A DNA stretch of 33,203 nt, taken from positions 1 to 33,203 of the forward strand of contig MFCV01000020.1 of NCBI GenBank assembly GCA_001777015.1, given 5' to 3'. The notes beneath the pieces are model-generated. The model was not told the origin of the DNA. It searched no databases and was given only the letters and a program-made list of their open reading frames with translations. The stretch is from Candidatus Daviesbacteria bacterium RIFCSPHIGHO2_02_FULL_36_13 (GTDB taxonomy: Bacteria > Patescibacteriota > Microgenomatia > Daviesbacterales > UBA10151). Below are positions 3,911-32,134 of this stretch, piece by piece. How positions within the stretch are numbered: the stretch's first letter is position 1; the number at the start of each line of letters is the position of its first letter. The position numbers and the translations under genes were made by a program.

Positions 3911-4981
3911 ATGGCTCAGAAAAATTTACAGCTCGCTAAACAAAAGAAAACAGATGAATTTTATACTCAGCTTGTTGATATTGAAAAGGAACTAAAACAT
4001 TACAAAGACCAATTTCGTGGTAAAGTGGTTTATTGTAATTGTGATGATCCGTTCGAAAGTAACTTTTTTAGATATTTTGCAGCAAATTTCAACACACTAG
4101 GTCTCAAAAAACTTATTACTACTAGTTATGTTAAATCTCCAATAGCTGGTGGACAGTTACCTCTATTCGAAGTAAAGGGATTAAAGCCGAAAGGAAAAGA
4201 GCCTTTTAAAATCGAAATTAATGAGGTCTTAGATTCTAATTCTGATGGCGCGATAGGATTATCAGACGTTGAATGGCTACTTAAGCACGATGCAAATGTT
4301 TCAACGCCTCTCAAAGGAGATGGTGATTTTCGTAGTCAAGAATGTATTGAGCTGCTCAAAGAAGCAGACATAGTAGTTACCAATCCTCCCTTTTCACTTT
4401 TTCGAAAATATGTTGCACAACTTGTTGAATATGACAAAAAGTTTCTAATTCTTGGTGATCAAAATGCAATTACCTATAAAGAGATATTCAAGTTAATTAA
4501 AGAAAATAAACTTTGGTTCGGGTATGATAACGGTGGAACAAAATGGTTTCAAGTTCCTGATGATTATGACATACCAACAGAATCAAGAAAGAAGATTGAA
4601 GATGGAATCCAATATTTCAGTATGGGAAGGGTCTTCTGGTTTACAAATCTAGACACAATTAAACGTCATGAAGAACTTACCTTATATAAAAAGTTTAGTC
4701 CAGAAGAATATCCAGAGTTTGACAATTATATTGCAATAAGTGTAGGTAGATACATGGATATTCCTATGGATTACGATGGTGTAATTGGTGTACCAATTAC
4801 ATTTCTAGATAAATATAATCCTGAACAGTTTGAAATCGTTGGAAGTGACTATAATATAAAGGAGGGTTTATTGCCCCAATTAGTTAATCCAAATTGGCAA
4901 GGAAAAACAGATCGAGCATATTTAAAAGGAAAAAGATTATATAGCCGTATCTTAATTAAAAATAAAAGATTAAAAAAATAA
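3911..4981 (+). CDS. EcoRI-type adenine-specific DNA methyltransferase
   Basis: The protein has 356 residues of the EcoRI methylase family (SAM-dependent N6-adenine methylation). Family marks in order are DEFYTQ (15-20), GKVVYCNCDDP (37-47, the SAM-binding side), GDGDFRSQE (about 136-144), and catalytic NPPF (158-161) followed by SLFRKY. Length is normal for the family. The ATG is preceded by TAGAAT 9 nt upstream without a Shine-Dalgarno. The stop is one base from the next gene's ATG, so the DUF262-HNH nuclease is cotranscribed. Context suggests it protects DNA against that nuclease. An orphan methylase is the alternative. Confidence 0.9.
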   Translation: MAQKNLQLAKQKKTDEFYTQLVDIEKELKHYKDQFRGKVVYCNCDDPFESNFFRYFAANFNTLGLKKLITTSYVKSPIAGGQLPLFEVKGLKPKGKEPFKIEINEVLDSNSDGAIGLSDVEWLLKHDANVSTPLKGDGDFRSQECIELLKEADIVVTNPPFSLFRKYVAQLVEYDKKFLILGDQNAITYKEIFKLIKENKLWFGYDNGGTKWFQVPDDYDIPTESRKKIEDGIQYFSMGRVFWFTNLDTIKRHEELTLYKKFSPEEYPEFDNYIAISVGRYMDIPMDYDGVIGVPITFLDKYNPEQFEIVGSDYNIKEGLLPQLVNPNWQGKTDRAYLKGKRLYSRILIKNKRLKK

Positions 4982-4982
4982 T

Positions 4983-6074
4983 ATGCAAATTGATTTACAT
5001 AAAATAAAAATTAGAGATGTGATTTCTGGATACAAAGACAGCGCCGAAGAGGGTGTGGTGGCTTATGGAGGAAAACTTGATATTCGACCAAAATATCAAC
5101 GAGAATTTGTGTATACAGGAAAACAGCGTGATGCTGTAATTGAAACTATAAAAAACGGATTTCCACTTAATGTTATGTATTGGGTCAAAACAAATCTAGG
5201 TAGTTTTGAAGTTCTGGATGGTCAACAAAGAACTATAAGTATAGGGCAATATGTAAATGGCGATTTCTCACTTAATAATTTTTATTTTGGTAATTTGACT
5301 AAAGAAGAACAAGACCAAATTCTGGATTATGAATTGATGATTTATTTCTGTGAAGGTACTGACAAAGAAAGATTAGATTGGTTTAGGATTATCAACATTG
5401 CTGGCGAAAAGTTAACAGACCAAGAAATACGTAATGCTGTTTATACAGGACCATGGCTTAGCGATGCTAAATTGAAATTTAGTAAAACTGGTTGTGTTGC
5501 ATATTTACTGGCTAGTGACGGAGGACAACTTCTTAGTGGTTCGCCAATCCGACAAGAATATTTAGAAACCACACTTTCATGGATCAATGATGGAAATATT
5601 GAAGATTATATGGGTCAACATCAACATGATTCGCATGCTGACGAATTGTGGAAATATTTTCAAAATGTCATTGCATGGGTCAGAAATACTTTTACCAACT
5701 ACAGACGAGAGATGAATAATGTAGCGTGGGGGGTCTTATATAATGAATTTAAAGATTCAAAGTACGATAGCAAAAAATTAGAAAGTGAAATTAAAGAACT
5801 AATGCAAGATGAAGATGTAACTAAAAAATCAGGTATTTATCCCTATATTTTAACTAGGCAAGAAAAATACTTATCAATTAGAGAGTTTACAGACAGGATG
5901 AAACGTGAATCATTTGAGCGACAGAATGGAAAATGTGTGAAATGCAAAAAAACATTTACTATAGAAGAAATGGAAGCGGATCATATAACACCCTGGCATG
6001 AAGGCGGGAAAACTATTACTGATAATTGCCAAATGCTATGCAAGCAAGATAATAGAACTAAATCGGGAATATAA
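4983..6074 (+). CDS. DUF262 plus HNH nuclease, candidate restriction enzyme
   Basis: The protein has 363 residues. The N-terminal DUF262 (ParB/Srx-like) domain shows PKYQREFVY (36-44) and DGQQR (79-83), the nucleotide-dependent motif of this family. The C terminus, about 315-363, is an HNH nuclease with CVKC, ADHI and NCQMLC zinc and metal ligands. This is the architecture of GmrS/GmrD-like and related restriction proteins. It directly follows an EcoRI-type methylase, so it probably cuts DNA lacking that methyl mark. Unlike GmrSD it is short, with the HNH directly appended. It could instead cut modified phage DNA. Pairing and operon are seen; substrate is inferred. Confidence 0.85.
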   Translation: MQIDLHKIKIRDVISGYKDSAEEGVVAYGGKLDIRPKYQREFVYTGKQRDAVIETIKNGFPLNVMYWVKTNLGSFEVLDGQQRTISIGQYVNGDFSLNNFYFGNLTKEEQDQILDYELMIYFCEGTDKERLDWFRIINIAGEKLTDQEIRNAVYTGPWLSDAKLKFSKTGCVAYLLASDGGQLLSGSPIRQEYLETTLSWINDGNIEDYMGQHQHDSHADELWKYFQNVIAWVRNTFTNYRREMNNVAWGVLYNEFKDSKYDSKKLESEIKELMQDEDVTKKSGIYPYILTRQEKYLSIREFTDRMKRESFERQNGKCVKCKKTFTIEEMEADHITPWHEGGKTITDNCQMLCKQDNRTKSGI

Positions 6075-17517: not shown

Positions 17518-17871
17518 ATGGATCCAGAAGCTTATAGGAAGAAACTTGAGTTGGATATTCTTACAATTATTGAGGAGAAATTAAGAAATGGACAGATGGA
17601 TGCTGAAAGAGCCAAAGCTATTGCTAGAATGGTTTTAGATAAACTTCATCCTCCCCTTACTTTAGAGCAAATCCATCAAATTGCCCCAACGCTTGATGAC
17701 CATTTTGCAGAACTTGCAAAAGCAGTCATGCCCATAATTCATGACCATGAAGAAGAAGTTAAAAAAGTTGTTTCAGAACATGCTTCCAAACTCATCAAAT
17801 CTGGTAAGATTGATGAGGCCTTATCAATTCTGAAACAAGCAACACAAAAAGGAATAGAAGTTAAAACATAA
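17518..17871 (+). CDS. Orphan helical protein, 117 aa, upstream of the NUDT9-like gene
   Basis: Unrecognised, almost entirely helical by composition, with heptad-like stretches (LELDILTIIEEKLRNGQM and VKKVVSEHASKLIKSGKI). There is no membrane segment. Its TAA overlaps the ATG of the NUDT9-like gene (TAATG), so the two are translationally coupled. A small gene coupled to a large enzyme could be an inhibitor, chaperone or adaptor. I know of no family to support a choice. Confidence 0.6.
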   Translation: MDPEAYRKKLELDILTIIEEKLRNGQMDAERAKAIARMVLDKLHPPLTLEQIHQIAPTLDDHFAELAKAVMPIIHDHEEEVKKVVSEHASKLIKSGKIDEALSILKQATQKGIEVKT

Positions 17872-19670
17872 TGGAAATAACCGCAGGAATAAAACCAACC
17901 CTAGAGAATACTGGTTCTGAAAGTCCAAAAGGACATATAAAAGCCCGTACAGAGAAACCGGATACCTATCCCGAAAGAGCACCTGTATCAGATGGAGTAT
18001 CATGGGAGACAATTGATAAAAGTAAATATCACCCACCATATTTTGTAGATAATAGGGTTTTAGCAAACGATCGAACAAAAGACCCCAAAAATAAAAAATT
18101 GTGGGCAGATCCGGAAGATATTTCGCTACTTGAAGACAAAAAATTCCTAAGCTACGAGGGAGAGGTACGGCTTGATGAGAAAGGTAGGCCACTTAATCCA
18201 AGAGGTCCAACAGGAATTGAGGGAAGAGGAGAACTAGGAAGATGGGGAGCAAATAAAGCTGCGGATCCAATAGTTTTCCGTACAAATGAAGACGGTTTTA
18301 TGGAAATGATTACTATAAAGCGAAAAGACACTGGAGAGTGGGCTATCCCTGGAGGAATGGTGGATGAAGGAGAACGGGTGACTGCTACCCTAAAGAGAGA
18401 ATTAGGTGAAGAGACTTCTGCAAATCTAGACTTTGAGGATGCCCAACCGATTTATCAAGGGTATGTGGATGATCCACGGAATACCGATAACGCATGGATG
18501 GAAACTGATGCTTTCTATCTCTATTTGCCAGAAGGTACAAAGACTAATCTTCAAGCAGGAGACGATGCTTCAGATTCGAAGTGGATGGTGTTAAACGAAG
18601 AATCAGTTAATTCGTTATACGCCAGTCATGCGGATCTTGTTCAAAGAGCTATAAGATCCTGGCAAGAGAAAACAGGTTTTGTTGTTGATAAAGAAGGAAA
18701 TATCAAAAAATCAGCAGAGGGAGAAATAGTCAGTCAAATCACGGAAGCTCGCGCGAACGGAAACAATTCAAATCCTGATGATGTATTGGAAGAAATTGTC
18801 TCATCTGGTGCAGAAATATTATCAGCATCAGAGCCTACTATTGAAAGCTCCTCTGAACAATTACAAAGCTATCTCGTAACAGAGGCTAAAAGTGCGTTGG
18901 GACAACCCACTTTTAACACAAGGAATGAGCTCATGGGAAAAGCAGTTGGTCTTGAATCCTCCTTATTAGCAGCAAAGTCTATTGGTAAGCCAGAAGTAGC
19001 TGATAAATTAAGAGGTGTTTTCACCCAAGCTGCTGAAGAATCAGGAAAAACTTTTGCAGGTGCATTTGATGAAACTGGTAAAAAAATGGAAGATAAAAAT
19101 GGTGAATACGATACTGCGATGAAAGCCGCCGGAGAAGTTGCACTCCAACATCTTCCGGATGCGTTGAAAGTAGCTGGTATTAATGTTGACATTCAAAAAG
19201 TCTTAAGAGATGCAACATTCAATGATGTTTTAAGAGTAACAGCAAAAGAATTGGGCCAACCTGAACCCGTGGGTATAGATCCAGATCAGGTTAGACAAAC
19301 CCTACATAGCATGGTACCAAATAATGAATATGGTGTAGAACATATTGATACGATGCCATTTGATGAAAATACCCCATTATCAGAACAGGAACAAAAAGCA
19401 TTAGATGTAGCTGTAAGACTCGCAAATGCAACATGGAAGGTGGGACAAGTTCATAGAGCAGCTTGGGAAGGCAATGATGGTAGAATCAATCCTGATGTCA
19501 GAGAGGTGTTTAATCCATTTGATTTATTAAAGAAAACTCAATTTGACAGAGTTATACAGGAAGGACGACAACCTCAAGAAGCATTAACAAGAGTGGGTTT
19601 TGAAATTTATAAAGATGTAGCTCAACTTAAACCACTTGTTGCTCAACCCCAACCAGGACCAGCTCGTTAA
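17871..19670 (+). CDS. NUDT9-like ADP-ribose pyrophosphatase with a long C-terminal extension
   Basis: The protein has 599 residues. Residues about 40-265 match the whole NUDT9 layout: a cap segment (VLAN, WADPEDIS, GRPLNPRGPTGIEGRG at about 105-120), LGRWGANKAADPIV, KRKDTGEWAIPGG, and the Nudix box G162-E168-R176-E177-E180-E181. GYVDDPRNTDNAWMET (197-212), AGDDASDSKW and LYASH follow. NUDT9 splits ADP-ribose to AMP and ribose-5-phosphate; all catalytic acids are kept. The rest (about 280-599) is unassigned, helical, with a PFDLLKKTQFDRV segment near 547-559 and a Pro/Gln tail. It is coupled to 17518. Roles in NAD-linked defence or counter-defence, or as an exported effector, are inference. 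Confidence 0.85.
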   Translation: MEITAGIKPTLENTGSESPKGHIKARTEKPDTYPERAPVSDGVSWETIDKSKYHPPYFVDNRVLANDRTKDPKNKKLWADPEDISLLEDKKFLSYEGEVRLDEKGRPLNPRGPTGIEGRGELGRWGANKAADPIVFRTNEDGFMEMITIKRKDTGEWAIPGGMVDEGERVTATLKRELGEETSANLDFEDAQPIYQGYVDDPRNTDNAWMETDAFYLYLPEGTKTNLQAGDDASDSKWMVLNEESVNSLYASHADLVQRAIRSWQEKTGFVVDKEGNIKKSAEGEIVSQITEARANGNNSNPDDVLEEIVSSGAEILSASEPTIESSSEQLQSYLVTEAKSALGQPTFNTRNELMGKAVGLESSLLAAKSIGKPEVADKLRGVFTQAAEESGKTFAGAFDETGKKMEDKNGEYDTAMKAAGEVALQHLPDALKVAGINVDIQKVLRDATFNDVLRVTAKELGQPEPVGIDPDQVRQTLHSMVPNNEYGVEHIDTMPFDENTPLSEQEQKALDVAVRLANATWKVGQVHRAAWEGNDGRINPDVREVFNPFDLLKKTQFDRVIQEGRQPQEALTRVGFEIYKDVAQLKPLVAQPQPGPAR

Positions 19671-19688
19671 TCCGAACCTCTGAATTGA

Positions 19689-19717
19689 TTGACTCCTCAA
19701 ATCAAAAATGAAACAAT
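19689..19717 (+). promoter_or_regulatory. Possible promoter of the RelA/SpoT-like gene
   Basis: TTGACT (19689-19694), 17 bp, then AACAAT (19712-19717), a weak -10, 6 nt before ATG 19724. Spacing matches the leaderless pattern seen elsewhere. Confidence 0.4.
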
Positions 19718-19723
19718 GTTGAT

Positions 19724-22249
19724 ATGGATTCTGAAGCAGCAAGTGCTGGTACGGCTAAAATAGCAGCTGCAGAAGCTGCAAAAGGGACTGAGCCAAAGAC
19801 CCAGGAAGCAGGCTCTCCTCACTTACAACCTCAAAAGGATGCTGACGGAACGTTGCCTCCTGCTCCCAATAGTGAGACACCAAAAACTACACAAGCAAGA
19901 TTAATCGAAATTGCACAAGTTGCAGATGCTAATCCTAGAGAACAACAAGGAGTTCCTAATAGTGAACAAGAGCTACAATTAATTGACACTCAACTCGGAC
20001 AGTCAATTCATAATAGCGAAATAGCAACTATTGCATCAAGATATTTGAGAGATAATGAGAAAACAGATATCCAGACCTTATTGCGTAATAAAGATACAAG
20101 ACCTCTTGTTATTGACCAGCTAGGAAAAATCTCTGATCGTGCATATCGTTCTTTAGTAAGCTCATTGGTAGAAGGCCCCGAAGAAATCAATGCTATTGGA
20201 GGTGTACAGGCAAGCGTTGACGTATTAAGTCGGGAGATGATGACTAGGGGTTCTGCAATTTTTGAAAGAGGAAAATTTAACTTACCGAATGATCCAGACT
20301 ATTGGGTAGATGAAACACGTTTTATAGACACAAGAAAAACCAGTGGTGATAGTAGATGGTTGGTGTGGGATGTTAATAATCCTGAGCATAGAGCAGCAGC
20401 AGAATCAATTCTTGCAGAAGCAAGAGGATTAGAAGATGGGTTGGGAACCTTTCTAGATCAAATTAGACAAAGAGCTGGTTTGGCAGAAGGAGCATTTGTA
20501 AATATTTCCCACAGGACTAAAGGAGTAGAAAGCTTACTTAATAAAACTGGCAAGTTTAGAGAAACTGAGTGGGGAAAAGATGCGACTATTGCAGATGCAG
20601 TTGATCTACTTGGAGGAAGGATTGTTGTGCAAGATCTTACTTCTTTAGAAAAAATAATGACAACACTTGAATCAACCGCCGAAGGTACTCCAGGAGTTCA
20701 AATACTCAGGAAAGAGAATAAATTTATTGCAAATCATGAAAAACCTGATCCATATAGAGCCATCCAATATATTGTTACTATCCCAGGTGAAGGAGGAAAA
20801 CTACATACCTTTGAGTTGCAGCTTAAGACATTTTCTTCAATGGTAGCTTCAGATTTGTTTCATAATGCTGTTTATAAACCGGATGTATTAAATTTACCGG
20901 CAGAACTACAGCAAGTTGTTAGAGAGTATAACTGGGAAAGTGATGAGCGAGAAATGATGGATTATCTAGATGTAAAAACCGGTGTTACAGCAGAACTAAC
21001 TCCTGATCAGCAAATCGAAAAAGCAATTTCTGAACTCGATTATAATGCTTTTTATGATTTGGTATTGAGCAAGGTTGATCCTGGTAAACCCTTAGACGAA
21101 GCAGCCAGACAAAGGTTGCAACTCTTCCATCAAAAAGAAGTAGCAAAGTTTCAAGGATTACAAGATAGAGATGAATCTGCTGTATTAGAATTAGCGGGTG
21201 CTGCCCATGATAGTTATTATCAAAAAGCTGCAAAGGATTTAGTGGAAAATCCAAAATCGGATCAACTAGGAAATAGTATTCCCGAAGCAGCTTTACAATA
21301 TCTTAGTCCTGAAGCACAGGCAAAATATAAGGCAAGGTATGAGACATTTAATGGTAGGAATAACAAGCTTTCTGTAGAGGACTTACAGTTGTATAAACTT
21401 ACAGATGAGCAACTAACTCAATTCCTGACTGCTGCCGGTAAGGATTTATCCACTGATGGCACAAAAGTAAGCGCTTTAGTTGAAAAAGTGAAACAATTTA
21501 GGGGTGAAGATGAGGTTTCAAAAGCAGAACGCCAAAAAATGAATGTAATGAATCTATATCACGCACCATTTGAACAATTAGTCAGATTAACACAAGAGAG
21601 CTCACCTGATGCTATTCAAGATCCTCAAGTTAGAGAACTTTGGAAACAGACTCTAATATCAAGCCAAATCAAAGCCATAGCTACATCCTCTATTCTAACT
21701 GAGGTGGGAGGGTATGATAGCGTGGGAAATTTAAGAGATTTAAGTAGAGAAGTTATTCAAGGCAGCGGATATTCACAAAGAGAAATGTTAACTTTCCTAT
21801 TTTTCACATCTGCTGATAGATCTAGTTCAGAGTTTGCAAATACGTCCTACCAAGAGTTTGCTACATCGGAACAAACAGCTTGGGCAAGAGATTTTGATAG
21901 GACAATGGATAGAGCCATACTGACTAAATTAACTGCTATACAGCTTCAATCCATTGACCAAGCTATGGCGGGTGAACCAAGTGCCGTTTATATGGCGAGA
22001 TATCAGAAAGCTAGGTATGAACTTATGAATAAATATATACGCTCTATGGTAGCAAATCCCTATTTAGCAGATCGGGTTTCTCCTTCTATCACTCAAAGAA
22101 GTAGAGAAGAGGTTGGTTTGCTACTCGAAGGAAGTGAAGAATCCCTGGAACTTGCCGCAAAAATAAAAGATCCAGCAGCATTTCAAGAATTTTCAACTTT
22201 TATAACTACAGAAGCTGGAGTACCTAATATTGTTCTACAAAGGAGTTAA
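19724..22249 (+). CDS. Large protein with a RelA/SpoT-like synthetase domain
   Basis: The protein has 841 residues. An Ala/Pro/Glu-rich, probably disordered start (1-60) and a helical part precede a RelA/SpoT synthetase-like domain at about 255-390. Its motifs are SHRTKGVESLLNK (ATP-side Arg/Lys), DAVDLLGGRI with D294, PYRAIQYIV in place of GYRSLHxxV, FELQLKT with E364 in place of EVQIRT, and DLFHNAVYK. The Mg and catalytic acids are kept, so pyrophosphate transfer is plausible. There is no TGS or ACT domain, so it is not a housekeeping Rel. About 450 helical residues follow, unassigned. A convergent HD hydrolase gene ends 11 bp away, resembling toxSAS toxin-antitoxin logic. Confidence 0.75.
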   Translation: MDSEAASAGTAKIAAAEAAKGTEPKTQEAGSPHLQPQKDADGTLPPAPNSETPKTTQARLIEIAQVADANPREQQGVPNSEQELQLIDTQLGQSIHNSEIATIASRYLRDNEKTDIQTLLRNKDTRPLVIDQLGKISDRAYRSLVSSLVEGPEEINAIGGVQASVDVLSREMMTRGSAIFERGKFNLPNDPDYWVDETRFIDTRKTSGDSRWLVWDVNNPEHRAAAESILAEARGLEDGLGTFLDQIRQRAGLAEGAFVNISHRTKGVESLLNKTGKFRETEWGKDATIADAVDLLGGRIVVQDLTSLEKIMTTLESTAEGTPGVQILRKENKFIANHEKPDPYRAIQYIVTIPGEGGKLHTFELQLKTFSSMVASDLFHNAVYKPDVLNLPAELQQVVREYNWESDEREMMDYLDVKTGVTAELTPDQQIEKAISELDYNAFYDLVLSKVDPGKPLDEAARQRLQLFHQKEVAKFQGLQDRDESAVLELAGAAHDSYYQKAAKDLVENPKSDQLGNSIPEAALQYLSPEAQAKYKARYETFNGRNNKLSVEDLQLYKLTDEQLTQFLTAAGKDLSTDGTKVSALVEKVKQFRGEDEVSKAERQKMNVMNLYHAPFEQLVRLTQESSPDAIQDPQVRELWKQTLISSQIKAIATSSILTEVGGYDSVGNLRDLSREVIQGSGYSQREMLTFLFFTSADRSSSEFANTSYQEFATSEQTAWARDFDRTMDRAILTKLTAIQLQSIDQAMAGEPSAVYMARYQKARYELMNKYIRSMVANPYLADRVSPSITQRSREEVGLLLEGSEESLELAAKIKDPAAFQEFSTFITTEAGVPNIVLQRS

Positions 22250-25754: not shown

Positions 25755-25799
25755 AAATTTACTATAGCAGAATCATAATTAGAATGTACTTCTTTCTAA

Positions 25800-25914
25800 A
25801 GGGGTTGCACCCCTCAGATTACAAGGGTCTAGATAAACGAGGTCGTTGCCTCGCCCTTGTAATCCTCACCCCGCTTAAAAACTTCAGGTATTGGTAGCAG
25901 GCAGGCTGCTACCA
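25800..25914. ncRNA. Structured leader, candidate cis-regulatory RNA or oriT
   Basis: Three perfect inverted repeats occur in 115 bp. AGGGG/CCCCT is at 25800-25814. GATTACAAGGG (25817-25827) pairs with CCCTTGTAATC (25854-25864), with an inner CGAGG/CCTCG stem (25838-25853). TGGTAGCAG (25892-25900) pairs with CTGCTACCA (25906-25914) around loop GCAGG. GC content is clearly above its surroundings. Next come AAAGGAGGTGA and the DUF2958 ATG. It could be a structured 5' leader controlling that gene, a free RNA, or the element's transfer origin. No known riboswitch class is recognised. Confidence 0.5.
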
Positions 25915-25959
25915 GAAAAAATATTTTCTAGGTAAAGGCCAGGAAAGGAGGTGAACTAA

Positions 25960-26268
25960 ATGCAACTTTTGACAAAAGAATTAACAACAAAGTTACCCTT
26001 TTTATATACGCAGGAAGATGAAGATGACCCCATTGTTATCTGTAAATTCTTTGCTGTCTGGACTAACTGGACATGGTACGCCATAGAATTTGACGGAAAA
26101 GATACCTTCTTTGGTTATGTTATTGGTCATGAGAATGAGTTAGGATATTTCACTCTTTCCGAGCTACAAGGATTAAAAGGTCCTATGGGTTTAGGTGTTG
26201 AAAGGGATATGTACTTTAGACCGTGCAAGCTTTCAGAAATTAAAAGGCTACACGAAGGACAGTATTAA
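25960..26268 (+). CDS. DUF2958 protein
   Basis: The protein has 102 residues, a full-length DUF2958 domain: LLTKELTTKLPFLY, DDPIVICKFFAVWTNWTWY, EFDGKDTFFGYVIGHENELGYF, GLGVERDMYF. The family is common on plasmids and conjugative elements; its biochemical role is unknown to me. It has a near-consensus Shine-Dalgarno (AAAGGAGGTGA) 5 nt before ATG and lies behind a strongly structured leader. A hairpin terminator follows the stop. Confidence 0.88.
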   Translation: MQLLTKELTTKLPFLYTQEDEDDPIVICKFFAVWTNWTWYAIEFDGKDTFFGYVIGHENELGYFTLSELQGLKGPMGLGVERDMYFRPCKLSEIKRLHEGQY

Positions 26269-26303: not shown

Positions 26304-27083
26304 TTACTCTTCTGGTCTAATTTCTTCCCAATTAACTTGACCTGTCCTTATTTCCCTTTTAGTAGTTAAAAATAGGTCAATATCATCTCCTATATTTTTA
26401 GTTAAAATTGCCTGGCTGAACATTTTAATATGGTATTTCCTCTTATCTGAGGGGAGAACAAACAGAATGGTAGGAAAAGGAGCATTATTAGTATTTGCCT
26501 GCCAATCACCACCTTTGCAGTAGTTAAGATAATAAGTAACTCTTTCTGTTATGACCTTGTGAGGGGTATAATCGTCATAGTAGTCTAGAAAATATCTGTT
26601 AGTATCAGCACCATCTATTTCCTCAATATAGGCAGTTGGCAATGGGTCAGGAAAATATTCACAACTGCCAAGTTCTTGTTTAGTAAAAAAGTTTAATACC
26701 TGCCCCTTTGTTTTCCTGGATAGAAAGAAGAGGAATATATCTGCAATAAATAAATTTCTTTTGATAAATGGGACCTCTTTTGTTTTTTCTTTATATAACC
26801 TGTCCAAAAAGTCCTCATCAATATTACTATCTTCTTTGCTGCTTTCTTCTTTTAAGATGTACCTTGCCTTTGTATCCAGACAATAAATATAACCATCTGC
26901 AATTTCTTTATCCTCTATATAAGTTATAAACTTTTTGCTGACTAAATCATTTAATGCAATTTGTAATCTTTTTTTATCTTTATGTTCAAATAATTTTATT
27001 AGTTGTTTAATAAGTAAGTATCTGAATTGATAGAGATAGAAAATAATATCATCTTGTTTTTTAGAATGAGGTGGTATTTCCAT
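26304..27083 (-). CDS. Replic_Relax-family (MobC-like) DNA-processing protein
   Basis: The protein has 259 residues. An N-terminal winged-helix part (IIFYLYQFRYLLIKQLIKLF...LQIALNDLVSKKFI) is followed by the family's core: NLFIADIFLFFL, FLDYYDDYT, YYLNYCKG and APFPTILFVLPSDKRK. Replic_Relax proteins act in plasmid replication and in DNA relaxation for mobilisation, and no other relaxase is visible here. It is thus the best candidate to prepare the transfer strand and deliver it to VirD4, whose gene lies upstream on the same strand. It has its own promoter (27184-27212). Confidence 0.8.
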   Translation of the reverse strand: MEIPPHSKKQDDIIFYLYQFRYLLIKQLIKLFEHKDKKRLQIALNDLVSKKFITYIEDKEIADGYIYCLDTKARYILKEESSKEDSNIDEDFLDRLYKEKTKEVPFIKRNLFIADIFLFFLSRKTKGQVLNFFTKQELGSCEYFPDPLPTAYIEEIDGADTNRYFLDYYDDYTPHKVITERVTYYLNYCKGGDWQANTNNAPFPTILFVLPSDKRKYHIKMFSQAILTKNIGDDIDLFLTTKREIRTGQVNWEEIRPEE

Positions 27084-27266: not shown

Positions 27267-30053
27267 TTACCTGTTCTTCTTAGGTAAACCACCTTTAGGA
27301 GTTGTATTTGTGGTATTTTTATCTAATTTATCATTAGCTGGTTTAGTATTTTCTTCTTTTACTTCAACTTTTTTCTGAGCTCTTACATATTTTATGGCAT
27401 AATTTTTTCTGGATGAGTCAATAAGTTTTTTAATAAGTTCTAAATCCTTATCTATTTTTATCTTAATGGTTTCACCGGAAAAGGCTGCCTCTGCATCAGT
27501 TGCTGAAACCTTAATATAGAATTTATATCTTGGTAAATTCATAATTTGTCCCATCTTTACAGCCGGTGCAAATTGAGCAAGCATTAACTCTTCATCTTCT
27601 GGATTCCCTGTTTTAAAACTAATTAAAGTAGTTACATTAGCTAAGATGGTACTGACAATATTGTCATCACTTTGTTGGGCAGTTGATTGCTCTGCCATAC
27701 AAATATCCATTCCATATTTTCTAACCCTCGATAACATCTTGGCAAAAGATAATGTGGCAAAGTCCTGAAACTCATCAACATATAAGTGGAATTGTTTTCT
27801 ATCTTCCTCAGGTATCTCTGCTCTTCTAAGGGCTGCTTGTTGAATTTTAGTTAGAATTGTTGTCCCAAGTAACTTTGATGTATCTTCACCTAGTTTTCCG
27901 GCTGATAAATTACAGATTAGAATTTTGCCATTTAATATCTCATTAAAGTTGATAGTAGATTTTGGCTGCTCTAAAATTCTTTTGGCAATGGGAGAAAATA
28001 AAAATCTACCAATTTTAGCTGTTACTCCACCTACCATTTTAACTATCTGGTAATCACCAGCCCTACCAAATTCATTCTTCCAGAAATCTAATAAATCAGG
28101 ATCTTCTAAGGTTTTAATAACAGATTTTAAATAGGTTGGATTATTTAGCAGTTTATAAACTGTAAATATTGTCCTATCTGGGATAGTAAAAGCAGTATGA
28201 ATGGCATTTCTTAGGATATATTCAATTCTGTGAGCTTCTATTCTTTCATCTTTGGAGAATACTTTTCTAAATAAAGAGATAACCCCTTCTGCCACTACTT
28301 CTTTTTCCAAATCTGCCTCATTTTCAGATAATCCCGGTGTCAGCTCTAAAAGGTTAATACCGATTGGGTTATCCATATCACGGGGATTAAAGTAGACAAA
28401 ATCATTTATCCTTTCCTTTGGAATAGAAGATACTAAAAGCTCAGATACATCACCATCTGGGTCAATAAAAGCCAAACCTTCACCTTTTAGAATGTCCTGA
28501 ATAGCCATTGAAGACATCAGAGTGGTTTTACCTCCACCAGTTCTTCCTATAATATAGGCATGAGTTTTTCTTTCCTCTTCAGTTAGTCCAATTGGTGTTT
28601 CATCACCCCCATACCTATTTACTCCAAACACCACTGCTAAATCCCTGCCTTGTTTTAAAGACAAAGGAGCTGATAAATCATCAGAGTATGATTTAACAAT
28701 ATTTTCTGTTTGAGTAGTCCTGGTAAAGGGAAAATGGTAGAAACTTGATACTTCTGAAGCAGATAGCAGTGATGAACCATTATCAGAAACTAAAGACAGC
28801 AATCTTTTCTGGAAATTTAACATCTTTAGTTTTCCAAAGACTAAATCATAAATTAAGGGAATATTGTTTTTAACAATTATTGATTGATATTTAGGAACAG
28901 AAAAAGAAGTCATAGTTGAGGTAAAGCCCTTAGTTCTTTGATTTAGTGATTTTTTATCTGAGACTATAGCTAGTAATCTAAGTGATGTTTCAAATAAAGG
29001 CTGATCAATCTTTTCCTTAATTGATTTAACAGTTTCTTCTTCAAATGGAGTGATTACTCTGGCTGGCCTAAGTTGCATTTGGTATTGAAATTGGTTTTGC
29101 TGAAATTGGTAATCAGGAGATGCAGCATATGAAGGTCTAGCTTTACTATGAGCAATAGAATTTAGAAACCATTCCACTTGTTTACCTATCTCAAGGCACA
29201 TCTTTATTAAAATACTAATAGTAAAAGTAATTGGAATAAGGAATGCTGGATATCTAATTCTATCTAAATACTTTAAGACATTTTCATTACCCAAAATCAT
29301 GTTATTGATTTTGTTTGTTTCATTAGTTTTAGTTGGAGAAATAACAATTTGAAAGGAAATTAACTCATCAGGGGATAATTTTGTCATCATACCTGTTAAA
29401 AAAGCTATTGGGTCATGCTCTATAAACATATCCAGTTTTTGCAGTGGATAGGCAAAATGTTTTTTAAGACCGAATTCTAAAACTTTTTTCCTCAAGCCTT
29501 TTTTCTTTTCAATATAATCCTCAACCTCTTTAATCTTTAAAGAAGACATAAATGAGGTTAGGTGTTTTTTAACATTAGGTGCTTCATTAGGTGTAGTTCT
29601 AACCAAGTATCTTATACCTGTATGTAAACTTGATACTATTTCAAATGAGAGCTTCAACTTTCTTCCTAATAACTTATCCATCCATGATCTGTCCCAATTA
29701 AGCTCCTGGTGGAGGATCTCAAATAACCTCTGGGTAGTATAAGCTGATTTATCAATATATGCAGGAGGGGTTATTTCTAAAAGCACTGATTCTTCATTAA
29801 ATATCTTTTTAAGTCTTAGAATTAAACGGATTGCCAGTAACCCTAAAACAAAAACTACTAATAAATATAAATAAGGCAAATAAGAGAACAAGTTGATTAT
29901 AAATCCTACAAAATCTGAGATAGGCTTGGTTATAAAAGGAGGAAAAAAAGTCCAGACAAGTAAGAAGAAGTCTTTTATAACAGCTAAATAATTCCCGTCA
30001 GAGAAGTTTTTAAGAAGTTCTTTGGAATAAATGTCCGCAGGCTTATCTACCAT
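27267..30053 (-). CDS. virD4: VirD4/TraD-type coupling ATPase
   Basis: The protein has 928 residues. It is the hexameric membrane ATPase that recruits the DNA-protein complex to the channel. Membrane helices lie at about 25-45 and 62-84. After a long insertion with a further hydrophobic stretch near 280, Walker A (IGRTGGGKTTLMSS) is near residue 500 and Walker B (LYVDEFQDFATL) near 757; then CMAEQSTAQQ is the usual sensor. I start at ATG 30053 (MVDKPADIY), with AAAGG upstream, because TATAAT (30090-30095) lies inside the longer frame. The protein is longer than usual VirD4 and ends in a Lys/Thr-rich tail. Confidence 0.9.
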   Translation of the reverse strand: MVDKPADIYSKELLKNFSDGNYLAVIKDFFLLVWTFFPPFITKPISDFVGFIINLFSYLPYLYLLVVFVLGLLAIRLILRLKKIFNEESVLLEITPPAYIDKSAYTTQRLFEILHQELNWDRSWMDKLLGRKLKLSFEIVSSLHTGIRYLVRTTPNEAPNVKKHLTSFMSSLKIKEVEDYIEKKKGLRKKVLEFGLKKHFAYPLQKLDMFIEHDPIAFLTGMMTKLSPDELISFQIVISPTKTNETNKINNMILGNENVLKYLDRIRYPAFLIPITFTISILIKMCLEIGKQVEWFLNSIAHSKARPSYAASPDYQFQQNQFQYQMQLRPARVITPFEEETVKSIKEKIDQPLFETSLRLLAIVSDKKSLNQRTKGFTSTMTSFSVPKYQSIIVKNNIPLIYDLVFGKLKMLNFQKRLLSLVSDNGSSLLSASEVSSFYHFPFTRTTQTENIVKSYSDDLSAPLSLKQGRDLAVVFGVNRYGGDETPIGLTEEERKTHAYIIGRTGGGKTTLMSSMAIQDILKGEGLAFIDPDGDVSELLVSSIPKERINDFVYFNPRDMDNPIGINLLELTPGLSENEADLEKEVVAEGVISLFRKVFSKDERIEAHRIEYILRNAIHTAFTIPDRTIFTVYKLLNNPTYLKSVIKTLEDPDLLDFWKNEFGRAGDYQIVKMVGGVTAKIGRFLFSPIAKRILEQPKSTINFNEILNGKILICNLSAGKLGEDTSKLLGTTILTKIQQAALRRAEIPEEDRKQFHLYVDEFQDFATLSFAKMLSRVRKYGMDICMAEQSTAQQSDDNIVSTILANVTTLISFKTGNPEDEELMLAQFAPAVKMGQIMNLPRYKFYIKVSATDAEAAFSGETIKIKIDKDLELIKKLIDSSRKNYAIKYVRAQKKVEVKEENTKPANDKLDKNTTNTTPKGGLPKKNR

Positions 30054-30089
30054 ATTACCTTTAAATTGGCAGGTAGGCAGATTAGCCCG

Positions 30090-30117
30090 ATTATATACCC
30101 TGAACATAAAATTGCAA
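30090..30117 (-). promoter_or_regulatory. Promoter of virD4
   Basis: On the minus strand TTGCAA (30112-30117), 16 bp, TATAAT (30090-30095). Transcription would start near 30083, giving a leader of about 30 nt with AAAGG before ATG 30053. This rules out the longer reading frame. Confidence 0.65.
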
Positions 30118-30156
30118 CAGGGCAAATTAGGCTTAATCTTCTTACAATTCTCTATC

Positions 30157-30239: not shown

Positions 30240-30599
30240 ATGGAAACTGCCGAACAACAATTACTTATAACAGAAGAACAAATTGTTACACCTGCAATAG
30301 AGATTTTAAATGAAGTATCACCCCTTGTAGAAAAGACCCCTAGTCAACAATTAGAAAGCTCAAAAGCTGTAGTCAATGTCCTAGATACCTTATTTCCAGA
30401 GCAACAATTTGATGAAAAGAATATCCAAAAAGCTAAGGAGATATTAGGATCATTAACTGAAAGTTTAAGCCCTCAACAACTGAGAGATACAGTAGCGGAA
30501 TTTCAATACCTGGTGAATAGTTGGTTGGATGATTTTGAAAGAGAAATTTTCAAAGGGAAAACTTTAAAAGAACTTCTTCACGAGAAAGGGGGCGTATGA
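30240..30599 (+). CDS. Small acidic protein coupled to the integrase
   Basis: The protein has 119 residues, acidic and helical, unrecognised, with QQL-rich N-terminal half and a final FEREIFKGKTLKELLHEKGG. It is first in the integrase operon, and its TGA overlaps the recombinase ATG (ATGA), so translation is coupled. A partner that sets recombination direction or stability is a reasonable guess from position. No HTH is visible, so it is unlikely to be the operator-binding repressor. Confidence 0.7.
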   Translation: METAEQQLLITEEQIVTPAIEILNEVSPLVEKTPSQQLESSKAVVNVLDTLFPEQQFDEKNIQKAKEILGSLTESLSPQQLRDTVAEFQYLVNSWLDDFEREIFKGKTLKELLHEKGGV

Positions 30600-32134
30600 G
30601 TTTTGGGCAAAATGTAATTCATGCTGACGGGAAAAGAGCCATAATTTATCTCCGGGTCTCAACAGAAGAACAAGTTGATAATTTCTCATTAGATACTCAA
30701 GAAGATTTATGTAGAAAAGAAGCTGAAAAAAGGGGCTATGAAATCATTGAGGTTTTTAGAGAAGAAGGCAGATCAGCTAAAACTATTTTAGGAAGACCCG
30801 TACTCATAAACCTCCTTGAATATTGCCGAAAGAATAAAAATAAAATTCAAGCTATGTTTGTCTATCGAATTGACAGAATTTCTAGGCAAACAGCAGATTA
30901 CTTAGCTATCAGAAAAAAACTATCTGAAAATGGAGTAACAATCATTTCTTCAACAGAACCTACTGGGGATAGCCCCACTGAAAAGTTAGTAGAAACAATT
31001 CTGGCTGGTTTCGCCCAGCTAGATAACGATATAAGATCAGAAAGAGCTAGAAATGGACTTAGAGCTAGGTTTCTCTCAGGAAGAATTGTTACGGGCATGG
31101 TTCCACTAGGTTATACAGTTCAGGCTGGATATGCGGTAAAAGATCCTGCTATTTGGGATAAGATGGTTGAGGCTTGGAATTTAGTGGCTACCGGAACCAA
31201 ATCAATGGAGGAAATGGCAAATATTATGACTGATTGGGGCTTAAAACATAAAAGAGGTAAAAGAGAATACTCCTTAATCCGTCAAAGAGTTAATGAAATT
31301 TTTAGAAATAAATTCTATATGGGTGTTTTAACTTCTGGAGTTTATAAAGAAGAGGTTAAAGGTCAACATGTGCCTATGATTACAGAAGAGATATTTTATA
31401 AAGTCCAGGCAATTCTAGATGGTAGAAACCCTAATAAGCTAGCTTTAGCAACTAGAAAACATCTAAATCCTGATTTTCCTTTAAGAAGGGTGATCAAGTG
31501 TGGTAAATGTGGGATGGGCTTAACAGGTGGATGGAGTCAAGGAAGGCATGCGAAATATGGATATTACAGGTGTGGTGGACACTGTACAACTGCCTCAATT
31601 AAGGTTGAGGACTTAGATAATGCACTAATTAAGGTTTTGAAAGAGACAACACCTAAAAAGGAGTGTTTAAATCTCTTTATTGAGTTTATGTATAAAAATT
31701 ACCATGAGAGATTATTAAGGTTAAATAAGATAAGAGGCGAGGCTGAAAACGAAATAATAAGATTAAAAGCTCTTAGAAAAACTTTAGTTGACAAAAACCT
31801 ATCCGGGATTTATTCAGACGAGATATTTAAGGAACAAAGTAAGGAGATAGAAAATCAGATTACAAAGGCTCAGATAGCCAAAGAAGATGCACTATTTGAT
31901 AAATACAATATTGATAAGCTGACTTCTTTTATAAAGACACTACTAGCAGACTTAGGAGAAACTTACAAAAGATCGAGCTTAGGACAAATAAAAGTGCTTA
32001 TTGGTTCAATCTATCCCACTGGGGTTGCTTGGAGCTACAATGGCACCTTGAATCACCAGATTAGCCCATTATATCAAGCTATTCTGGGGTTCGATAAAGT
32101 CACTAGACTTCCGTGTGCCGAGGAGAGGATTTGA
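30596..32134 (+). CDS. Large serine recombinase (integrase)
   Basis: The protein has 512 residues. The resolvase domain begins RAIIYLRVSTEEQ with nucleophile S22 and R20, continues with YRIDRISRQTADYL and DNDIRSERARNGL (the long E helix). The recombinase domain follows (PLGYTVQAGY to GVLTSGVYKEEVKG), then a zinc ribbon (CGKCGMGL...YRCGGHC, about 302-330), and a coiled coil (about 375-430). All are present, so it should integrate and excise the element at att sites. Its last codons (CAEERI, stop) are read from the 3' end of tRNA-Leu(CAG), placing the right junction inside the gene. In the proposed excised circle the stop would stay in register, ending CAGNRT. Confidence 0.95.
   Translation: MSFGQNVIHADGKRAIIYLRVSTEEQVDNFSLDTQEDLCRKEAEKRGYEIIEVFREEGRSAKTILGRPVLINLLEYCRKNKNKIQAMFVYRIDRISRQTADYLAIRKKLSENGVTIISSTEPTGDSPTEKLVETILAGFAQLDNDIRSERARNGLRARFLSGRIVTGMVPLGYTVQAGYAVKDPAIWDKMVEAWNLVATGTKSMEEMANIMTDWGLKHKRGKREYSLIRQRVNEIFRNKFYMGVLTSGVYKEEVKGQHVPMITEEIFYKVQAILDGRNPNKLALATRKHLNPDFPLRRVIKCGKCGMGLTGGWSQGRHAKYGYYRCGGHCTTASIKVEDLDNALIKVLKETTPKKECLNLFIEFMYKNYHERLLRLNKIRGEAENEIIRLKALRKTLVDKNLSGIYSDEIFKEQSKEIENQITKAQIAKEDALFDKYNIDKLTSFIKTLLADLGETYKRSSLGQIKVLIGSIYPTGVAWSYNGTLNHQISPLYQAILGFDKVTRLPCAEERI
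32112..32120. repeat. Candidate right attachment core (CGTGTGCCG)
   Basis: It is identical to 154-162 and lies in the last codons of the recombinase and the 3' end of tRNA-Leu(CAG). Confidence 0.45.

Follow-up and report, generated by a model that had tools for sequence, protein, structure and literature searches.

Frpo single-strand promoters precede anti-restriction genes in F-type plasmids, and Frpo/ssi single-strand promoters are described for the leading regions of F and ColIb-P9 (PMC11541004, which cites Masai and Arai 1997). In pLS20, EGeRS1 is a structured, promoterless element located just upstream of the ribosome binding sites (RBSs) of establishment genes including ardC; it stops read-through only when in its native orientation, and the transferred strand of this plasmid is the non-template strand (PMC8708921). 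Both Frpo and EGeRS1 are solutions to one task, the production of anti-restriction proteins right after entry into a cell. MOBC relaxases are described as combining a winged helix with a PD-(D/E)XK-like domain (PMC12857230).

Region 25800-25914 of the window, that is, the whole stretch of 33,203 nt analysed here, which is a complete contig of a genome of about 0.96 Mb, shares features with these systems. Like EGeRS1, to which it is likened by description, it is a conserved multi-hairpin element situated right before the RBS of putative establishment genes, ArdC-like ones among them, it can occur in several copies per element, and it possesses no recognisable sigma-70-type promoter. It is shorter (about 115-160 bp versus 400-600 bp) and belongs to Patescibacteria instead of Bacillus plasmids, and read-through blocking is a measured property of EGeRS1, whereas the present leader is known from its sequence. 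With Frpo/ssi it shares the position of a structured intergenic element directly before putative establishment or anti-defence genes, here ArdC-like and DUF2958 genes, the possibility of several copies, and an orientation fixed relative to the transfer genes. It differs from Frpo/ssi in host phylum and in that the folded strand of Frpo/ssi shows -35 and -10 sequences, whereas none are recognisable in the leader by the sigma-70 consensus, which may not be that of the host. Thus, from the match to the Frpo and EGeRS1 patterns, a fold-dependent leader of establishment cassettes is proposed. That 25800-25914 is a regulatory leader of establishment cassettes on conjugative elements of Patescibacteria is considered probable (about 75%).

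Fold and conservation of the leader

The leader and the gene behind it comprise the following features:

25800-25814, + strand: hairpin 1, AGGGG (25800-25804) and CCCCT (25810-25814), loop TTGCA
25817-25864, + strand: hairpin 2, GATTACAAGGG (25817-25827) and CCCTTGTAATC (25854-25864), a perfect outer stem of 11 bp
25838-25853, + strand: nested hairpin 2b, CGAGG (25838-25842) and CCTCG (25849-25853)
25866-25875, + strand: unpaired conserved block, TCACCCCGCT, consensus TCACCCYGCT, near-invariant across homologues
25892-25914, + strand: hairpin 3, TGGTAGCAG (25892-25900) and CTGCTACCA (25906-25914), preceded by a conserved GTAT
25946-25954, + strand: Shine-Dalgarno (SD) sequence of the cargo gene, AGGAGGTGA, strong as judged from sequence
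25960-26268, + strand: cargo gene, acidic DUF2958 protein of 102 aa (Pfam E 4.6e-14)

All three inverted repeats reported for 25800-25914 in the initial annotation were found as placed there, as were the 11-bp perfect central repeat with its nested 5-bp stem (CGAGG/CCTCG), the CCCC at 25869-25872 and the strong SD downstream. Folding of 25780-25930 gave an energy of -51 kcal/mol, versus -34.9 +/- 3.5 in dinucleotide shuffles (z -4.6, 0/200).

The leader region is shared upstream by DUF2958 relatives within the same family. Two covariance models were built, R1 from seven leader copies and R2 from sixteen, and searches with these models, for which strict filters were set on the large genome sets, detected the leader in 9 of the 45 genomes from the window's own family, 30 of 374 sampled from its class, 6 of 380 sampled across the phylum, and 2 of 45 and 1 of 86 from two other classes, a few of these genomes belonging to other Patescibacteria lineages. 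These counts do not represent independent events because the homologues are related, many of them lying in syntenic modules. The data are mostly metagenome assemblies. The leader had no match in Rfam, either at the gathering threshold or at E<=1, and no exact leader motifs were found in the viral contigs searched. One copy, together with DUF2958, Replic_Relax and coupling protein genes, was carried by a contig filed under a Micrarchaeota MAG (JAHKLX010000019.1), which is probably a misbinned Patescibacteria contig.

Covariation analysis of homologous upstream regions, which had been suggested along with the initial annotation, revealed strong compensatory change. In an alignment of 36 copies that had been fitted to the structure of the covariance model, 95.6% of the stem cells pair and 15 of the 24 stem pairs are double-changed (55 such cells), a level reached by 0/500 shuffles, and slid versions of the pairing, included as controls, collapse. 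Double changes occur at 5 pairs of hairpin 2 and 6 pairs of hairpin 3. Stem mismatches counted with a hand-made pairing come out too high at the outer ends of these two hairpins, and those counts were set aside. The arms of hairpin 1 are replaced by AAACC/GGTTT in loci L107 and L108, sequence comparison showed that hairpin 2b is swapped for unrelated hairpins in homologues, and 9 of 35 copies carry a 1-nt bulge in the outer stem of hairpin 2, confined to the 5' arm. Three unpaired motifs are conserved: RATRAAC, within the hairpin 2 loop (GATAAAC in the window), TCACCCYGCT, which follows hairpin 2, and GTAT, ahead of hairpin 3. The 5' boundary is exact, conservation in the aligned copies beginning at AGGGG A of the window (25800). 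The fold of 25800-25914 is therefore real and not a product of chance, being held by covariation across 36 homologues.

Exchangeable cargo genes and transfer gene neighbourhood

An SD and a start codon lie directly downstream of the leader in nearly all intact copies, mostly 30-48 nt from hairpin 3. The cargo of most copies is DUF2958, a family with a median pI of 4.9, whose predicted model (pLDDT 92) gave no convincing match in a structure search of the PDB. Three copies (the second copy in L051, and those in L093 and L097) precede ArdC-like genes belonging to one sequence cluster, of which that of L093 matches the ArdC domain PF08401, and four (L055, L096, L099 and L100) precede genes for a family of acidic proteins about 110 aa long. 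Two tandem direct leaders occur within one element in L051, one before DUF2958 and the other before ArdC. All three ArdC leaders have DUF2958 leaders as their nearest relatives; thus, the genes behind this conserved leader have been exchanged. In L090 the leader is intact but no cargo follows, and hairpin 2 and the TCACCCYGCT block remain in L106, where the cargo has been lost. For L093, it is the ArdC domain that points to an establishment role of the cargo, and DUF2958 and the 110-aa family would have a similar role, with a presumable anti-restriction function.

A fold kept by matched mutations while its cargo is swapped for unrelated genes indicates a real control element. Of the two identities offered in the initial annotation, a new leader RNA or an oriT, that of a leader is upheld by the compensatory changes and by the fixed place before the SDs of three unrelated cargo genes, and that of an oriT is the less likely.

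Solitary 5' leader halves, consisting of hairpin 1 and the 5' arm of hairpin 2 with the break inside the hairpin 2 loop, were observed at L061:2811-2937 (-), L103:6908-7011 (+), L089:3269-3341 (-) and L110:3119-3173 (+), the first three being followed by a complete leader that is oriented alike. They may be left over from recombination at the leader. Their interpretation as breakpoints of a site-specific process was rejected; the breaks fall at varying positions, some 28-40 nt past the start, and no mechanism is claimed. Two contigs of one genome, L064 (G038:C13, 1-600) and L063 (G038:C32), have 165 bp in common, ending inside hairpin 3, past which one leads to DUF2958 and the other to the C-terminal part of a serine recombinase, representing either a deletion variant or an assembly branch.

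The window carries T4SS genes, and the following genes lie downstream of the cargo:

26304-27083, - strand: Replic_Relax-type protein, convergent with the cargo gene, recognised via homologues (PF13814, E 1.7e-7 for that of L054)
27267-30125, - strand: VirD4/TraD-type coupling protein of a conserved transfer module
30596-32134, + strand: large serine recombinase of the element, its 3' end overlapping tRNA-Leu(CAG)

The nearness of the region to Replic_Relax and VirD4 genes, as noted initially, was thus confirmed. The cargo is convergent with Replic_Relax in 31 of 31 loci and with the coupling protein gene in 29 of 29 loci in which these genes are in reach, figures that in part reflect inherited gene order. 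In L098 and L101, the leader precedes DUF2958 and transfer genes were not found nearby.

The predicted model of the Replic_Relax protein (pLDDT 89) consists of a winged helix and a PD-(D/E)XK-like domain, with AF2093 and FokI as its best PDB matches, PaqCI as a further match, and the nickase N.BspD6I matching more weakly. Where the PD motif is expected, the protein of the window has PT, lacking the Asp, and across the family a catalytic Lys is not apparent. Judged from the model, this protein is a candidate for an unrecognised relaxase of Patescibacteria elements, MOBC-like in architecture only. The end of the serine recombinase ORF in tRNA-Leu(CAG) suggests integration at the 3' end of a tRNA gene; a search of the window for a repeat of the tRNA-Leu end, as an attachment site, gave none.

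Elsewhere on the contig, a restriction-modification pair at 3911-6074, an EcoRI-type adenine methyltransferase followed by a restriction enzyme of the HNH/GmrSD-N type, accompanies the establishment cassette, and 17871-22249 encodes a NUDIX-domain protein followed by an 841-aa RelA/SpoT-domain protein, the two showing weak matches to the PADLOC candidate defence families PDC-S07 and PDC-S33.

Folded form and alternative readings

The DNA upstream differs between leader copies and is unrelated, and the gap to the previous gene can be as little as 15-30 bp. Across copies, the 40 nt upstream contain no conserved column and no -10 box. Promoter scores of the leader, its antisense strand and the upstream flank did not exceed those of shuffles, with no recognisable -35/-10 pair on either strand, and the region upstream of the coupling protein gene gave a modest signal, slightly above shuffles, in the same scan; these tests use the bacterial sigma-70 consensus, which may not be that of Patescibacteria. 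The hexamer AAGCGG, which we take to be a primosome-assembly sequence, is present on the antisense strand of the window and was rejected as a conserved feature, the other copies having CCGCTA or CTGCTT. A possible resemblance of GGGGTGA, on the same strand, to a MOBC nic site was considered and set aside.

Within the leader stems, 5 cells are G-U versus 818 that are Watson-Crick (0.6%), compared with 90 of 1134 (7.9%) in tRNAs of the same loci. This scarcity of G-U, unusual for RNA, leans toward a fold at the DNA level. The antisense strand folded better in 30 of 35 copies; the choice of strand by folding energy is uninformative because composition-matched shuffles give the same difference.

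In a rival reading, the region is an ordinary RNA leader, in which hairpins in the 5' untranslated RNA would regulate the cargo by insulation, attenuation or control of its translation and single-stranded DNA would be uninvolved. Consistent with such a leader are the position directly upstream of the SD, the presence of several hairpins, the conserved motifs left unpaired and the one-sided bulge in hairpin 2, as well as the read-through block of EGeRS1, limited to the native orientation (PMC8708921). However, an RNA leader would not be expected to lack G-U pairs nearly entirely, no promoter is conserved upstream, Rfam contains no match, and pairing with the SD shows no clear covariation. An RNA leader is possible, although we consider it doubtful.

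That the region is an oriT at which the adjacent Replic_Relax protein makes its nick is unlikely, and this reading fits less well than an establishment leader. Similar to a MOBC oriT (PMC12857230), the region has hairpins, a conserved unpaired block and, close by, a coupling protein gene and that for a winged-helix/PD-(D/E)XK-like protein, the Replic_Relax protein being MOBC-like in its model. The near-invariance of TCACCCYGCT, the stems that are nearly Watson-Crick-only, and the survival of hairpin 2 and the block after the loss of cargo in L106 would also agree with an oriT. An oriT normally occurs once per element together with the transfer genes, and most loci have a single leader per element. 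Unlike in a MOBC oriT, however, the position of the leader is tied to gene starts, with rigid spacing to the SD across three cargo families, and tandem copies occur in one element, L051 having two intact direct copies each with its own cargo. Copies before DUF2958 with no transfer genes in reach (L098 and L101), the missing PD-motif Asp in the Replic_Relax protein of the window, and the catalytic Lys not evident in its family also argue against an oriT.

A switch between two RNA states is highly improbable, whether through pairing of AGGGG with CCCC at 25869-25872, as the initial annotation had suggested, or through masking of the SD by TCACCCC. The window and many homologues do have the complementary sequences, but the AGGGG-CCCC pairing shows no covariation (388 of 500 shuffles equally good) and cannot form in L107 and L108 because hairpin 1 there is AAACC/GGTTT, and SD sequestration was rejected as not clearly above that of SDs swapped among loci (28/500), with TCACCCYGCT still conserved where the SD mismatches (L102, L103 and L105).

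Proposed action of the establishment leader

For the establishment leader, the observed parts are the conserved fold, the placement next to the SD, the exchangeable cargo and the orientation fixed relative to the transfer genes. Lying between arbitrary upstream DNA and the RBS of the cargo, such a leader would set when an anti-restriction-type gene is expressed. The resident double-stranded copy would give little expression of the cargo, there being no promoter signal beside or inside the leader. Upon entry into a new cell, the hairpins would work in the single-stranded element, and the protective gene would thereby be made early after entry, in the manner of Frpo or EGeRS1. As the active form, the folded DNA strand is preferred. 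The transferred strand of pLS20 being the non-template strand counts against a chain in which the single strand serves as template here. Further points against the proposed action are the lack of a recognisable -35/-10 pair on either strand, folding energies that favour neither strand once composition is accounted for, and the intact leader of L090 that has no cargo. The full chain, a fold-dependent and cis-acting establishment leader that also acts in the transferred DNA strand, is put at slightly below even odds.

More tentatively, and less likely than not, the leader might represent a new class of single-strand-DNA element, a promoter or entry switch, in Patescibacteria, which would activate exchangeable anti-restriction genes during conjugative entry and would lie beside a MOBC-like Replic_Relax relaxase that current profiles may miss. 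The leader may serve as a mark for further establishment genes; DUF2958 and the acidic 110-aa family are already linked to ArdC through it. The presence of the leader and establishment-type genes beside the coupling protein and Replic_Relax genes argues that at least this family of elements moves, or recently moved, by conjugation.
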